The notes beneath the pieces were generated by a model. The model was not told the origin of the DNA and searched no databases. It saw only the letters and a program-made list of their open reading frames with translations. The translations under genes and the position numbers were made by a program. A stretch of DNA of 64,000 nt. Origin: Streptomyces sp. V3I7 (GTDB lineage: Bacteria; Actinomycetota; Actinomycetes; Streptomycetales; Streptomycetaceae). The stretch is taken from the NCBI RefSeq assembly GCF_030817495.1, contig NZ_JAUSZK010000001.1:1653001-1717000 (forward strand). Reading direction: 5' to 3'. Shown here piece by piece: positions 41,254 through 58,351 of the stretch; within the stretch, counting starts at the first letter, position 1; each line of letters starts with the position of its first letter.

Positions 41254-42501
41254 TCAGTTGTCGTCCTCGTCGATCAGGAACCCGCGCATCGGCGACGGTG
41301 CCTGACCCATCGGGGACGGGCCCTGCGGGCGGACCGGCGCCATCGGCTGGGTCATCGCCGGGGACATCTGCTGCTGACCGCCACCGTAGGAGGGGGCGGA
41401 CGGCGCAGAGGAGCCGCCCATCGTCTGGTTGCCGCCGCCGTAGGACGGGGCACCCGCGCCGGCCGGAGCCATCGAGGGCGCCGGGGACGGCGGCAGGGAC
41501 GCCGCGGCCGGGGTACGCGGCGGAGCCAGCGAGTCGTCGGCCTGGGTCTCCAGCTGACGCAGCTGCGACTCCAGGTACGACTTCAGGCGCGTGCGGTACT
41601 CGCGCTCGAAGCCGCGCAGGTCCTCGACCTTGCGCTCCAGCGTGGCGCGCGCGGACTCCAGGGAGCCCATGGCCACGCGGTGCTTCTCCTGCGCGTCCCG
41701 CTCCAGGGCGTCGGCCTTGGCACGGGCGTCACGCTCGAGACCCTCGGCGCGGCTGCGGGCCTCGCCGACGATCTTGTTGGCCTCGGAGCGGGCCTCGGCG
41801 ATCGCCTGGTCGGCGGTCTGCTGGGCCAGCGAGAGGACACGCGCGGCGCTGTCGCCACCGGGGCCACCCTGACCGGGGCCGCCGGGACCACCCATCGGAC
41901 CGCCCATGGGGCCGCCCATCGGGCCACCCATCTGCTGCGGCATGGGGGGCTGACCACCCATCGGGCCGCCCTGACCCATCGGACCGGGACCCTGACCCAT
42001 CGGGCCGGGACCCTGCGGACCGCCCTGACCGCCGGGACCGGCAGGCAGCTGCGGGGCACCGCTCGGCAGCTGGGGCGGGCCACCCATGGGGCCACCCATC
42101 TGCTGCTGCGGCGGGCCCGATATGCCGGCGGGCACCGGGCCGCCGGGGCCTCGCATGCCCTGCTGCGGCATACCGCCCTGCTGCATCCCGCCCTGCTGCA
42201 TGCCACCCTGCTGCTGCATGCCACCCTGCTGCTGCATGCCACCCTGCTGCTGCATGCCGCCCTGCTGCTGAGGCGGGCCGTCCTGCTGCTCCGGGGGCTT
42301 GCGCATGTTCTGCTGGTTCTGCGCAGCCGCGCGCGTGGCAGCGGCCAGCTTGGCGCGCAGGTCCTCGTTCTCGCGGAGCATTCGGGTCAGCTCGGCCTCG
42401 ACCTCGTCGAGGAAGGCATCGACCTCGTCCTCGTCATAGCCTTCTCGGAGGCGTACGGTCGTGAACTGCTTGTTCCGCACGTCCTCGGGGGTCAACGGCA
42501 T
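41254..42501 (-). CDS. divIVA: Polar growth determinant DivIVA
   Basis: 415-residue coiled-coil protein that marks hyphal tips and new branches in streptomycetes. The conserved membrane-curvature N terminus is MPLTPEDVRNKQFTTVRLRE, followed by a first coiled coil (about 25-65), a long Pro/Gln/Gly/Met-rich linker (about 75-215), a second coiled coil (QQTADQAIAEARSEANKIVG to about 320) and a Pro/Ser/Gln-rich tail ending RGFLIDEDDN. The linker contains an expanded QQQGGM repeat. Last gene of the dcw cluster. Confidence 0.97.
   Translation of the reverse strand: MPLTPEDVRNKQFTTVRLREGYDEDEVDAFLDEVEAELTRMLRENEDLRAKLAAATRAAAQNQQNMRKPPEQQDGPPQQQGGMQQQGGMQQQGGMQQQGGMQQGGMQQGGMPQQGMRGPGGPVPAGISGPPQQQMGGPMGGPPQLPSGAPQLPAGPGGQGGPQGPGPMGQGPGPMGQGGPMGGQPPMPQQMGGPMGGPMGGPMGGPGGPGQGGPGGDSAARVLSLAQQTADQAIAEARSEANKIVGEARSRAEGLERDARAKADALERDAQEKHRVAMGSLESARATLERKVEDLRGFEREYRTRLKSYLESQLRQLETQADDSLAPPRTPAAASLPPSPAPSMAPAGAGAPSYGGGNQTMGGSSAPSAPSYGGGQQQMSPAMTQPMAPVRPQGPSPMGQAPSPMRGFLIDEDDN
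42172..42273 (-). repeat. Coding tandem repeat in divIVA (QQGGM units)
   Basis: About seven near-identical 15-18-nt units encode consecutive Met-Gln-Gln(-Gln)-Gly-Gly motifs in the DivIVA linker. The unit length is a multiple of three, so gain or loss of copies keeps the frame. Confidence 0.9.
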
Positions 42502-55599: not shown

Positions 55600-57558
55600 T
55601 CAGGGCTTGTAGGCGACGGGCAGGTTCGCGGCCTTGGCGCCGGTGGGCGGGACCTGGAGGGTCTTCAGCGCGAACTCCATCACCTGCTTGTAGATGGGGC
55701 CGCAGATCTGACCGCCGAAGTAGCTGCCCTTGGTGGCGTTCTGGATGGCGCAGTAGACGGTGACGCGGGGCTTGTCCGCCGGGGCGAATCCGGCGAACGA
55801 GGAGGTGTAGCCGCGGTACTTGCCCGTGGCCGGATCCACGCGGTTGGCGGTGCCCGTCTTGCCCGCGACGCGGTAGCCGGGGATGCGGGCCTTGATGCCG
55901 GTGCCCTGCTCGTCGTCGACGACGGACTCCAGCATCTGGGCGAGGGTCTTCGCCGTCTTCTCGCTGACGACCCTTGTCCTCTCCGGCTGTGGGGCGGGCG
56001 CGAAGCGGCCGTCGGCGCCGCGCGTGCCGCGCACGAGGGTCGGCGCGATACGGACACCGCCGTTGGCGATCGTCGAGTAGACGGACGCCGCCTGCATCGC
56101 GTTGATGGAGAAGCCCTGGCCGAAAGGAATCGTGTACTGCTGCGAGGTGGACCAGGTGTTCGCGGGCGCCAGGATGCCCCGGGTCTCCCCGGGGAAGCCC
56201 AGTCCCGTGTACGCGCCGATGCCGAACTTGCGCAGGTACGAGGAGAGGACCTTGTTGGCCTCCGGCTGGCTCTTTCCGAGCTGACCGGTGGCCAGGATGG
56301 TGCCGATGTTGCTCGACTTGGCGAGCACGCCGTTGAGCGTGAGGTGCCAGGTCGGATGGTCGACGTCGTCCTGGAAGAGCCGGTCGCCGCGGTGCAGCCG
56401 GTTGGGGACCACGACGTGGGTGAACGGGGTGGCCGCGTTCTCCTCCAGGACGGCCGCCATCGACATGACCTTGGCGGTCGAACCGGGCTCGAAGGCGTCC
56501 TGGAGGGCCGCGTTGCCCATGGCCAGGGGGTTCGCCTTCGAGAGGTCGTTGGGGTCGAAGCCGGGCGAGTCCGCCATGGCGAGGATCTCGCCGGTGCGGG
56601 TGTCCTGGACGATCACGTAGCCGCGGTCGGCCTTGGACTTCCTGACCTGCTCGCTGATGGCGTTCTGTGCCGCCCACTGGATGTCGCGGTCGAGGGTGAG
56701 CTCGACGTCGGCGCCGGACACGGCGGGGGTCTCGGTGGAGCCCACGGTGGGCACCTGGCGCCCGCCGGACTGGGCGTAGCGGACCTTGCCGTCCTTGCCG
56801 GACAGCTGCTTGTCCAGCTGCTGCTCGATCCCGCCGCCGCCCTTGCCCTCGGCGTTGACCCAGCCCAGCGTCCCGGCGGCGAGGTCGCCATTGGGGTACA
56901 CGCGCTGGCTGCTGGGGTCGCAGAAGACGCCGGCGAGGACGTTGGCGGCGCTCTTGTCGTGCTGCGCCTTCTGGGCGAGCGCGTTCTTCAGGTCCTTGAT
57001 CTGCTTCCAGACCTGCGGGGTCTGGCGTGCGGCGAGCTTGACGTAGCGTGCGTTCTTGTTGCTCGGCCGGAGCTTGTGGACCAGGTCGGCCTGCTCCTGG
57101 CCGAGGATGGGCGCGAGGAGCGCGGCGGCCCGCTCGGGGCCGTCGTCGATGCCCAGCTGCCTGCGGTTGAACATCGTCGGGTCGGCGGTGATGTCGTTGG
57201 CGTCCTCGCTGATCGCGAGGGCCACCCCGGAGCGGTCGGTGATCCCGCCGCGCTCGGCGGTGATGGTGTGGACGACATAGCGGTTCTGCTCGGCCTTGGC
57301 GGCGTACGCGCTGGCGTCGACGGCCTGCACCTGGAGCAGCCGTACGAAGAAGACGAGCAGCACCAGCGTCAGACCGAGCCCGACCATGCGCAGCCGCGGC
57401 CGCGGACTGCCGAGCCGGAGGCTGCGGGGCCCCGGGGGCCGCCCCCCGCCGGGCCGCCGCACCGGCCGCGCCCCGTTACGGGGACGGGGAGGCCGCGGAG
57501 GACGGGCCGGACCGGGCACACGGCGACGCGGCGGATTCCTGTCGGGCACTTGCGTCAC
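55600..57558 (-). CDS. ftsI: Septal transpeptidase FtsI (class B PBP)
   Basis: 652-residue penicillin-binding protein. A Pro/Arg-rich N terminus (MTQVPDRNPPRRRVPGPARP to about 50), one membrane helix (MVGLGLTLVLLVFFVRLLQV), the dimerisation module, then the transpeptidase domain with the Ser motif STAK (EPGSTAKVMSM), SSN (AKSSNIG) and KTG (AGKTGTANRV). I chose the GTG at 57558; a GTG at 57549 (MPDRNPP) is possible. Its start codon overlaps the stop of an extra small ORF produced by a local duplication, so translational coupling is preserved but with a different partner. Confidence 0.95.
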   Translation of the reverse strand: MTQVPDRNPPRRRVPGPARPPRPPRPRNGARPVRRPGGGRPPGPRSLRLGSPRPRLRMVGLGLTLVLLVFFVRLLQVQAVDASAYAAKAEQNRYVVHTITAERGGITDRSGVALAISEDANDITADPTMFNRRQLGIDDGPERAAALLAPILGQEQADLVHKLRPSNKNARYVKLAARQTPQVWKQIKDLKNALAQKAQHDKSAANVLAGVFCDPSSQRVYPNGDLAAGTLGWVNAEGKGGGGIEQQLDKQLSGKDGKVRYAQSGGRQVPTVGSTETPAVSGADVELTLDRDIQWAAQNAISEQVRKSKADRGYVIVQDTRTGEILAMADSPGFDPNDLSKANPLAMGNAALQDAFEPGSTAKVMSMAAVLEENAATPFTHVVVPNRLHRGDRLFQDDVDHPTWHLTLNGVLAKSSNIGTILATGQLGKSQPEANKVLSSYLRKFGIGAYTGLGFPGETRGILAPANTWSTSQQYTIPFGQGFSINAMQAASVYSTIANGGVRIAPTLVRGTRGADGRFAPAPQPERTRVVSEKTAKTLAQMLESVVDDEQGTGIKARIPGYRVAGKTGTANRVDPATGKYRGYTSSFAGFAPADKPRVTVYCAIQNATKGSYFGGQICGPIYKQVMEFALKTLQVPPTGAKAANLPVAYKP

Positions 57559-57566
57559 CTGCCGGG
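57505..57566. repeat. 62-bp direct repeat, copy A (ftsI start)
   Basis: Covers the ftsI start codon, its first 17 or so codons and the 8 bases upstream of it. It is identical at 61 of 62 positions to copy B at 57747-57808 (the one difference is at A57520 versus C57762), offset by 242 bp. Confidence 0.95.
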
Positions 57567-57800
57567 AGTCGGGGTCGTGGCGAACCGGGGAGCGGTTACC
57601 GAGGCACTCCGGCCCCTGCTTCCCGCCCGACGCACACCGGAACCCACCGGCCGCCCGCCACCGCTCGCGCGGCGGAGCGGCATCGCGGGACCGGACACAC
57701 GGCGGCACGGCGGACACCCGCCGCCGCTTCCGCAGCGGAGCGGCATGGCCGGACCGGGCACCCGGCGACGCGGCGGATTCCTGTCGGGCACTTGCGTCAC
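57555..57800 (-). CDS. 81-aa ORF created by duplication between ftsL and ftsI
   Basis: Starts with a GTG at 57800 overlapping the ftsL stop by 4 nt, and its own stop overlaps the ftsI GTG by 4 nt. It begins like FtsI (MTQVPDRNPPRRRVPGPA) and ends in TPTPGR, like the FtsL end TTPGR. The middle holds two similar blocks, RRVPGPAMPLRCGSGGG and RRVSGPAMPLRRASGGG. It has no membrane helix or domain. It was most likely made by tandem duplication of the ftsL/ftsI junction and may be translated only to pass ribosomes to ftsI. Confidence 0.5.
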   Translation of the reverse strand: MTQVPDRNPPRRRVPGPAMPLRCGSGGGCPPCRRVSGPAMPLRRASGGGRPVGSGVRRAGSRGRSASVTAPRFATTPTPGR

Positions 57801-57808
57801 CTGCCGGG
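57747..57808. repeat. 62-bp direct repeat, copy B (ftsL end)
   Basis: Covers the ftsL stop codon and the start of the 81-aa ORF. A third, more diverged copy of its outer part lies at about 57685-57713. Confidence 0.95.
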
Positions 57809-58351
57809 TGTCGTGGGCGGGGTGGAGCTCGGGGCGGTGGGGGCCTGCGGGCGTGCCGACGAGGAGGCGGCGGGGGCCGGGCCGGCCGGGGGCTGCTGCG
57901 ACGGGCCGGCCGGGGACTGCGTCGGCGCGGCGGACTGGGTGAGCGCCTCGGGGGCCGGCGGCTGGGACGGGCGGGGTGCGGACTGGGGGGCGGCGGGGCT
58001 GGGGGCGCCCTTGACGGAGCCGTCGGGGGCGAGGAAGGCGGGGTCACCGCCGGGCACCATGCCCAGTTCGCGGGCGCGGCGCTGGAGGGCGTCGGGCGCG
58101 GAGTAGGCGTCGATACCGCGCTGGAGGGCCTGCTCCTCGTCGGTGAGGCTCTTGGTCTGTTTCTGCAGGTCGTCGAGTTGGAACGAGCCCTCGCTGAGGG
58201 CCGAGTTCAGCACCAGCAGCCCGATGAGGCCGCCGCCGAGGAGGAGGACGACGAGGAGGACGAACGGAGTGCGCGCGGCCTGACCAGAGCCGCTCGGGAG
58301 GAGCCGCGCGAGCCGGGCGGCCCTCCCCCGCAGTTCGGGTTTCCTACGCAC
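57797..58351 (-). CDS. ftsL: Cell division protein FtsL
   Basis: 184-residue bitopic protein of the FtsQLB complex: a basic cytoplasmic N terminus, one membrane helix (FVLLVVLLLGGGLIGLLVL), a short coiled coil (LDDLQKQTKSLTDEEQALQR to LGM) and a Pro/Ala/Ser-rich extracellular tail of about 75 residues. GTG start at 58351, preceded by GGAGGG. It follows rsmH by 33 nt. The tail is longer and more repetitive than in most bacteria. Confidence 0.92.
   Translation of the reverse strand: MRRKPELRGRAARLARLLPSGSGQAARTPFVLLVVLLLGGGLIGLLVLNSALSEGSFQLDDLQKQTKSLTDEEQALQRGIDAYSAPDALQRRARELGMVPGGDPAFLAPDGSVKGAPSPAAPQSAPRPSQPPAPEALTQSAAPTQSPAGPSQQPPAGPAPAASSSARPQAPTAPSSTPPTTPGR

Follow-up and report, generated by a model that had tools for sequence, protein, structure and literature searches.

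Organization of the ftsL-ftsI junction in Streptomyces sp. V3I7

The window (i.e., the whole stretch of DNA analyzed here, 64,000 nucleotides in length) carries the genes rsmH, ftsL, ftsI and murE on its minus strand (NCBIfam/Pfam families). The product of the gene downstream of ftsL showed the Pfam domains Transpeptidase (PF00905; 237.8 bits) and PBP_dimer (PF03717; 58.9 bits) and no NCBIfam equivalog at its cut-off; the gene is named ftsI here because of these penicillin-binding protein domains and because it lies between ftsL and murE. The end of ftsL and the start of ftsI each lie in a copy of the same junction sequence (J1 and J2; Table 1), which forms a direct repeat with 61 of 62 identical positions and a spacing of 242 bp. 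The sole mismatch (A/C) is at position 57520, the exact core of the repeat comprises 46 bp (57521-57566), and the last ftsL codons (PGR-stop) fall within the repeated block. The 64-kb window contains two exact direct repeats with a length of 24 bp or more and a spacing of 30 to 1500 bp, namely the junction core and a second one (42193-42222) of 30 bp with a period of 36.

The two junction copies delimit an additional ORF, termed the relay below, whose GTG overlaps the TGA of ftsL and whose TGA overlaps an ftsI-frame GTG. It opens with MTQVPDRNPPRRRVPGPA, like the local FtsI, and finishes with ATTPTPGR, like the FtsL of some relatives (e.g., L005), while a degenerate 63-bp repeat is located mostly inside its middle (57590-57746). 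An earlier note on this DNA had described the duplicated junction with its one mismatch, a spacing that is not a multiple of 3 (242 = 3 × 80 + 2), an inserted 81-codon ORF joined to the ftsL and ftsI junctions, the FtsI-like beginning and FtsL-like end of this ORF and its degenerate internal repeats, and all of these features were recovered in the present analysis. The relay ORF had no match in NCBIfam and Pfam, and a protein search with the 81-aa ORF yielded 20 candidates with common words, none of them at E ≤ 10.

Table 1. Features of the ftsL-ftsI junction region (positions within the window)
Feature	Position	Strand	Description
ftsL	57797..58351	-	184 aa; NCBIfam FtsL_Actino NF053549, 106.9 bits (cut-off 55)
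Junction copy J1	57747..57808	-	ftsL end, Shine-Dalgarno/stop, relay start and first codons
AGGTGA at J1	57797..57802	-	ftsL stop within the putative Shine-Dalgarno of the relay (from sequence)
Relay ORF	57555..57800	-	81 codons from GTGA; 78 from the likelier GTG (57791-57789)
Degenerate tandem repeat	57654..57777	-	63 bp, 2.0 copies (Tandem Repeats Finder); repeat families D3, D4
Junction copy J2	57505..57566	-	relay end, Shine-Dalgarno/stop, ftsI start and first codons
AGGTGA at J2	57555..57560	-	relay stop within the putative ftsI Shine-Dalgarno; likely ftsI GTG at 57549-57547
ftsI, class B penicillin-binding protein	55600..57558	-	652 aa from GTGA, 649 from 57549

Recurrence of the relay among Streptomyces genomes

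A 20-base junction motif (up to 2 mismatches), which does not depend on reading frame, was searched for in 392 genomes of the genus and 394 genomes of the family, representing 699 different genomes; genomes with two same-strand matches of unlisted place (6 + 1) were rechecked, and relays whose junction differs from the motif by more than 2 mismatches escape this survey. The motif was present twice within 1 kb in 11 of the 699 genomes, i.e., G000 (the window), G007, G009, G026, G260, G319, G350, G563, G615, G650 and G702. Moreover, 80 named loci were fetched by similarity to FtsL, both anchors being present in 59 of them, and relays were found in S. lomondensis, S. tuirus PHM034, S. barringtoniae and Streptomyces sp. 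NRRL S-455. With NRRL S-455 and G260 counted as one species, and G702 and S. lomondensis (both with a spacing of 644) as another, the survey and the named records together comprise 13 species with 15 relay ORFs, as G009 and S. tuirus each carry two successive relays. The comparison of ftsL-ftsI junctions among related Streptomyces that the earlier note had proposed revealed the same architecture in 13 species, and a one-off event no longer describes it. The FtsI anchor was missing in 21 of the 80 named loci, mostly with the contig ending in or just past ftsL; the very GC-rich junction breaks draft assemblies, and relays are therefore probably undercounted.

Measured between the ftsL stop and a fixed anchor in FtsI, the distance ranged from 125 to 179 nt in 50 rows of the first locus set, as compared to 377 nt in the window and 260, 383 and 760 nt in three other genomes. 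Locus L014 (-51 in this set) was dropped as a probable sequence error, and L122 was dropped because its ftsL end was not located. In L014 (G196), the ftsL frame continues through the junction, with one or more indels in its tail that are perhaps sequencing errors. In L141 (S. shenzhenensis), degenerate RSGDPHR-like repeats extend the N-terminal head of FtsI and there is no second junction; the stop-to-anchor distance is 231 nt. A motif search of the named loci at 5 mismatches gave weak matches in L117 and L179 (inside ftsI) and in L127 (inside its relay), which were taken as chance. Inserts between ftsL and ftsI were not the subject of any title or abstract among the papers listed from an open library, in which few subscription papers are included.

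Start sites and spacing of the junction copies

Among distinct canonical junctions from other loci, 114 of 115 (all but L052) showed AGGTGA at the ftsL stop followed, 5 to 8 nt later, by a start in the ftsI frame. In 14 of these 114, with spacings of 5, 7 or 8 (e.g., L042, L161, L178, L192), the GTG within the GTGA is not in frame with ftsI, and the GTGA overlap is thus probably not the start that is used. AGGTGA-N5-GTG was intact in all 28 distinct junction copies from the 13 relay genomes. As judged from these alignments, the conserved start is the downstream one, with a predicted Shine-Dalgarno sequence that contains the stop codon, and the working starts in the window are probably at 57791 for the relay and at 57549 for ftsI. 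The GTGA overlaps by which the earlier note had coupled the three frames do exist in the sequence, although translation probably starts elsewhere. The 16S rRNA 3'-end motif that matches AGGTGA occurs five times in the strain's own genome.

The spacings of the two junction copies were 242, 113, 368, 248, 239, 239, 176, 203, 644, 275, 275, 218, 302, 437 and 395 nt. All 15 (13 distinct lengths, ranging from 113 to 644 nt) leave a remainder of 2 when divided by 3, the only class in which a relay starting at the first junction terminates on the stop of the second. As there are 13 distinct lengths, about 12 agreements remain even under one origin, with a chance of 3^-12 (approx. 2 × 10^-6) if these are independent. 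If all relays had one origin, no fewer than 12 changes in length would have had to be multiples of 3; with several origins, each relay would also have begun in the same class. Length changes within families of homologous relays (described below) stay in the class as well, both in family A (239, 248, 275, 368, 437 and 644) and in family B (203 and 218). None of the 15 relays contained an in-frame stop, while the other two frames contained 13 and 6 stops over 13 relays (with the first relay alone counted for G009 and for S. tuirus). The stop-codon test is weak because the relay middles are poor in A; base shuffles of one relay from each of six sets (G026 and S. lomondensis both belonging to family A) were stop-free 9.6% of the time.

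Composition and divergence of the relay ORFs

The relay middles contain 3 to 7% A, depending on codon position. On the coding strand, most of them are T-rich when compared to A (G026 the least), and they differ in this from the ftsL tail. GC at codon position 3 was not raised in the relays, and relay lengths range from 38 to 215 aa. Relay heads retain an FtsI-like start, often with RRRVPG.

For the closest pairs, dN and dS of the relay middle were 0.234 and 0.175 (G026/G260), 0.226 and 0.191 (G026/S. tuirus) and 0.253 and 0.246 (G260/S. tuirus). In the ftsL core, dN was 0.009 and dS 0.122 for G026/G260, with ranges of 0.009-0.021 and 0.115-0.138, respectively, across the three pairs. The relay middle evolves far faster than ftsL. 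In more distant, gappy pairs (G009/S. lomondensis, G009/S. tuirus, G260/G009 and G350/S. barringtoniae), dN reached 0.4 to 0.6 of dS (0.257/0.433, 0.356/0.784 and 0.235/0.530; 0.509/1.31 for G350/S. barringtoniae). Strong constraint on the relay peptide appears unlikely from these values, and some constraint may be reflected in the ratios of the distant pairs. The suggestion in the earlier note of a neutral event agrees with the amino acid content of the closest pairs but does not fit the reading frame, which is kept.

Origin, families and loss of relays

The earlier note had regarded the insert as a plain tandem duplication. This did not hold, as only about 62 to 92 of the 242 nt are duplicated and the remainder has no convincing match to either neighbor. 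A search for a local origin of the middle, covering 20 kb around six relays (those of S. tuirus, S. lomondensis, S. barringtoniae, G563, G615 and G650 being outside it) and the whole window, gave a best outside match with E = 0.007. No convincing second copy of the window's relay was found in its own genome, the best match beyond the junction region being 36 nt at 83% identity (E = 0.002). When scored against 133 canonical loci (heads of ftsI, tails of ftsL), the middles lay near shuffled sequences in 14 of the 15 relays (that of G007 was too short). Slightly raised scores were seen against heads for the window (43 vs. 31 ± 3) and G350 (33 vs. 26 ± 2) and against tails for S. barringtoniae (34 vs. 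27 ± 3); an origin from these sources was not accepted because the reverse complements scored 40, 36 and 34, respectively.

Clearly similar middles define family A (G009, G026, G260, S. tuirus, S. lomondensis and G563), such that one homologous relay is common to six of the 13 species. Family B (G350 and S. barringtoniae) shows weaker similarity (z = 4.4; P = 0.007), the middle of the window is weakly similar to others (z = 2.1 to 3.3 in three pairs; 55 pairs compared overall), and similarity between families is at best weak. A tree of ftsL and ftsI was built with a quick method from 127 rows; it omits loci with no ftsL match, ftsI sequences below 350 nt, rows identical to others and any second locus from a relay genome, and it represents G260 by ftsL only and lacks G563, G615 and G650. 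On this tree, the presence of a relay required at least 8 changes, at least 6 of them forced by starred branches, and the label was somewhat clustered (7 of 500 shuffles as low). One origin for all relays is neither shown nor excluded by this tree.

Two relay-free groups (L085 and L140/L157/L162/L163) are nested in family A, where the relay was thus apparently lost at least two times. In L085, an FtsL tail and an FtsI head that resemble those of G009 adjoin directly, as expected if recombination between the junction copies deletes the relay; we infer that relays are lost cleanly by this route. The rows nearest to the window on the tree (L005, L082 and L141) have no relay. No insertion event was seen among the loci compared, and absence in near relatives does not separate gain from loss. 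The earlier note had named such absence, in combination with assembly artefacts, as evidence against the duplication; the absence is real, but an artefact is unlikely given the single large contigs of G007, G009, G350 and G563. Both junction copies carry the same unusual letters in G260, in S. tuirus and in the window, a pattern that points to gene conversion or to copying in the recent past. In G260, the heads of the relay and of ftsI both have an unusual DDDHGR start, and in the related G026 the relay starts with DDDFGR and ftsI with SDREPP; gene conversion between relay and ftsI head is possible in these two genomes.

Proposed interpretation of the relay as a translated spacer

We propose, with a probability of roughly 0.68, that the relay is a translated spacer which is kept in frame as ftsI needs ribosomes that terminate in its own Shine-Dalgarno sequence. 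Each of the two junction copies comprises the ftsL end, AGGTGA with the stop inside it, and the beginning of ftsI (its start and no more than about 18 codons). The middle that they flank ranges from tens to several hundred nucleotides and has no recognized source. A ribosome finishing ftsL would halt in the first AGGTGA and restart 5 nt on at the relay, and a ribosome finishing the relay would halt in the second AGGTGA and restart on ftsI. An insert at this junction would persist only if ribosomes still reach the Shine-Dalgarno/stop of ftsI, and a spacer with its own stop, Shine-Dalgarno and start would keep the coupling at any length of the observed class, as would repeated units. The relay would thus be translated, its frame would be preserved by selection to bring terminating ribosomes to ftsI, and its peptide would itself contribute little or nothing. 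Reporters in E. coli and Haloferax show that coupling is nearly abolished by a gap of about 20 nt (PMC10666635). Against the translated spacer counts that the 15 relays do not represent as many independent events, one homologous relay being common to six of the 13 species. Moreover, a Shine-Dalgarno is present at J2 itself, and ftsI might thus be initiated without coupling.

A functional small protein encoded by the relay, e.g., a basic tail resembling that of FtsI (PPRRRVPGPA) and acting as a competitor or modulator of FtsI, would agree with the FtsI-like heads, with a frame open in 15 of 15 relays and with the dN/dS of the more distant pairs, but dN is at or above dS in the closest pairs, the lengths vary from 38 to 215 aa, codon position 3 lacks the rise in GC, neither NCBIfam nor Pfam recognizes the ORF, and relatives nested in family A do without it; we consider this explanation improbable. 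Similarly improbable is that the ORF is a mechanical by-product without consequence, left by recombination at codon-phase-matched sites. In-phase joining of the ftsI frame to the ftsL frame also yields the observed class, and relays are sporadic (11 of 699 genomes) with the apparent losses described above. However, such recombination would favor this class at the origin of a relay and not in later length changes, which keep the class in families A and B and which a mechanism of formation cannot explain; furthermore, a fusion of an ftsI head with an ftsL tail does not evidently account for the middles.

An extension of the FtsI N terminus through an upstream start in the ftsI frame appears very unlikely. 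This frame is indeed open through the insert of the window (ORF 55600-58047, 815 aa), but the same frame (frame 2 of the relay) is interrupted by stop codons in G026, G260, G350, S. lomondensis and G563, and a full Shine-Dalgarno and start are retained at J2. Even less credible is a sequencing or assembly artefact: the region is very GC-rich and the FtsI anchor is absent from about a quarter of the named loci, yet relays occur in 13 species, four of the genomes present them on single large contigs, and their middles have diverged while being homologous between species.

Comparison with known systems

Among described elements, the mycobacterial interspersed repetitive units (MIRUs) are closest to the relay; a review from 2025 presents them as short, apparently mobile repeats that insert at start codons and carry a coupled internal ORF (PMC12548453). 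Relays resemble them as short inserts at a start codon with an internal ORF whose coupling to the next gene is predicted from sequence, and head-to-tail units are also present in the relays of S. tuirus and G009. An ORF at a stop/start junction that is putatively coupled at both ends, as in MIRUs, was observed in 15 of 15 relays, with Shine-Dalgarno, stop and start intact at 28 junction copies. In contrast to MIRUs, which are dispersed, the relay has no convincing second copy in the genome of the window, relay middles share no consensus and differ between families, and the flanks are copies of the host junction itself. We did not class the relay as a MIRU because it is not dispersed in the window's genome and relays have no common sequence.

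The relay also resembles gene pairs coupled by termination and reinitiation, with a stop in the next Shine-Dalgarno and the next start 5 nt on (PMC10666635). A stop and start that overlap or lie a few nucleotides apart were found in 114 of 115 canonical junctions and 28 of 28 relay copies; the relay differs from these pairs as a third, apparently content-free ORF within an otherwise directly coupled pair. Ribosome-delivering short upstream ORFs and the engineered bicistronic design similarly use a short ORF to bring ribosomes to the next gene (PMC12548453), whereas the relay lies inside an operon between two protein genes and would maintain existing coupling rather than create initiation.

Implications for the division and cell-wall cluster

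A further reading, which is speculative and which we hold to be doubtful, is that the Streptomyces junction is a hot spot repeatedly making expandable arrays of frame-resetting mini-ORFs that act as a dial on FtsL:FtsI and as a recurrent source of translated ORFs. If this were true, each unit would have its own Shine-Dalgarno, stop and start, and any number of units would keep ftsI coupled; the arrays would represent a lineage-variable dial on the FtsL:FtsI ratio, and the new translated ORFs would be selected for readability and not for encoded content.

Relay ORFs would resemble orphan genes in annotation, and they outline a route by which bacteria could acquire translated ORFs without selection on protein. 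Overall, the 13 species provide a natural experiment on coupling in the division and cell-wall cluster, in which length and content were altered while every length found would allow the ribosome hand-over, and translational coupling at the ftsL-ftsI junction is directly testable.
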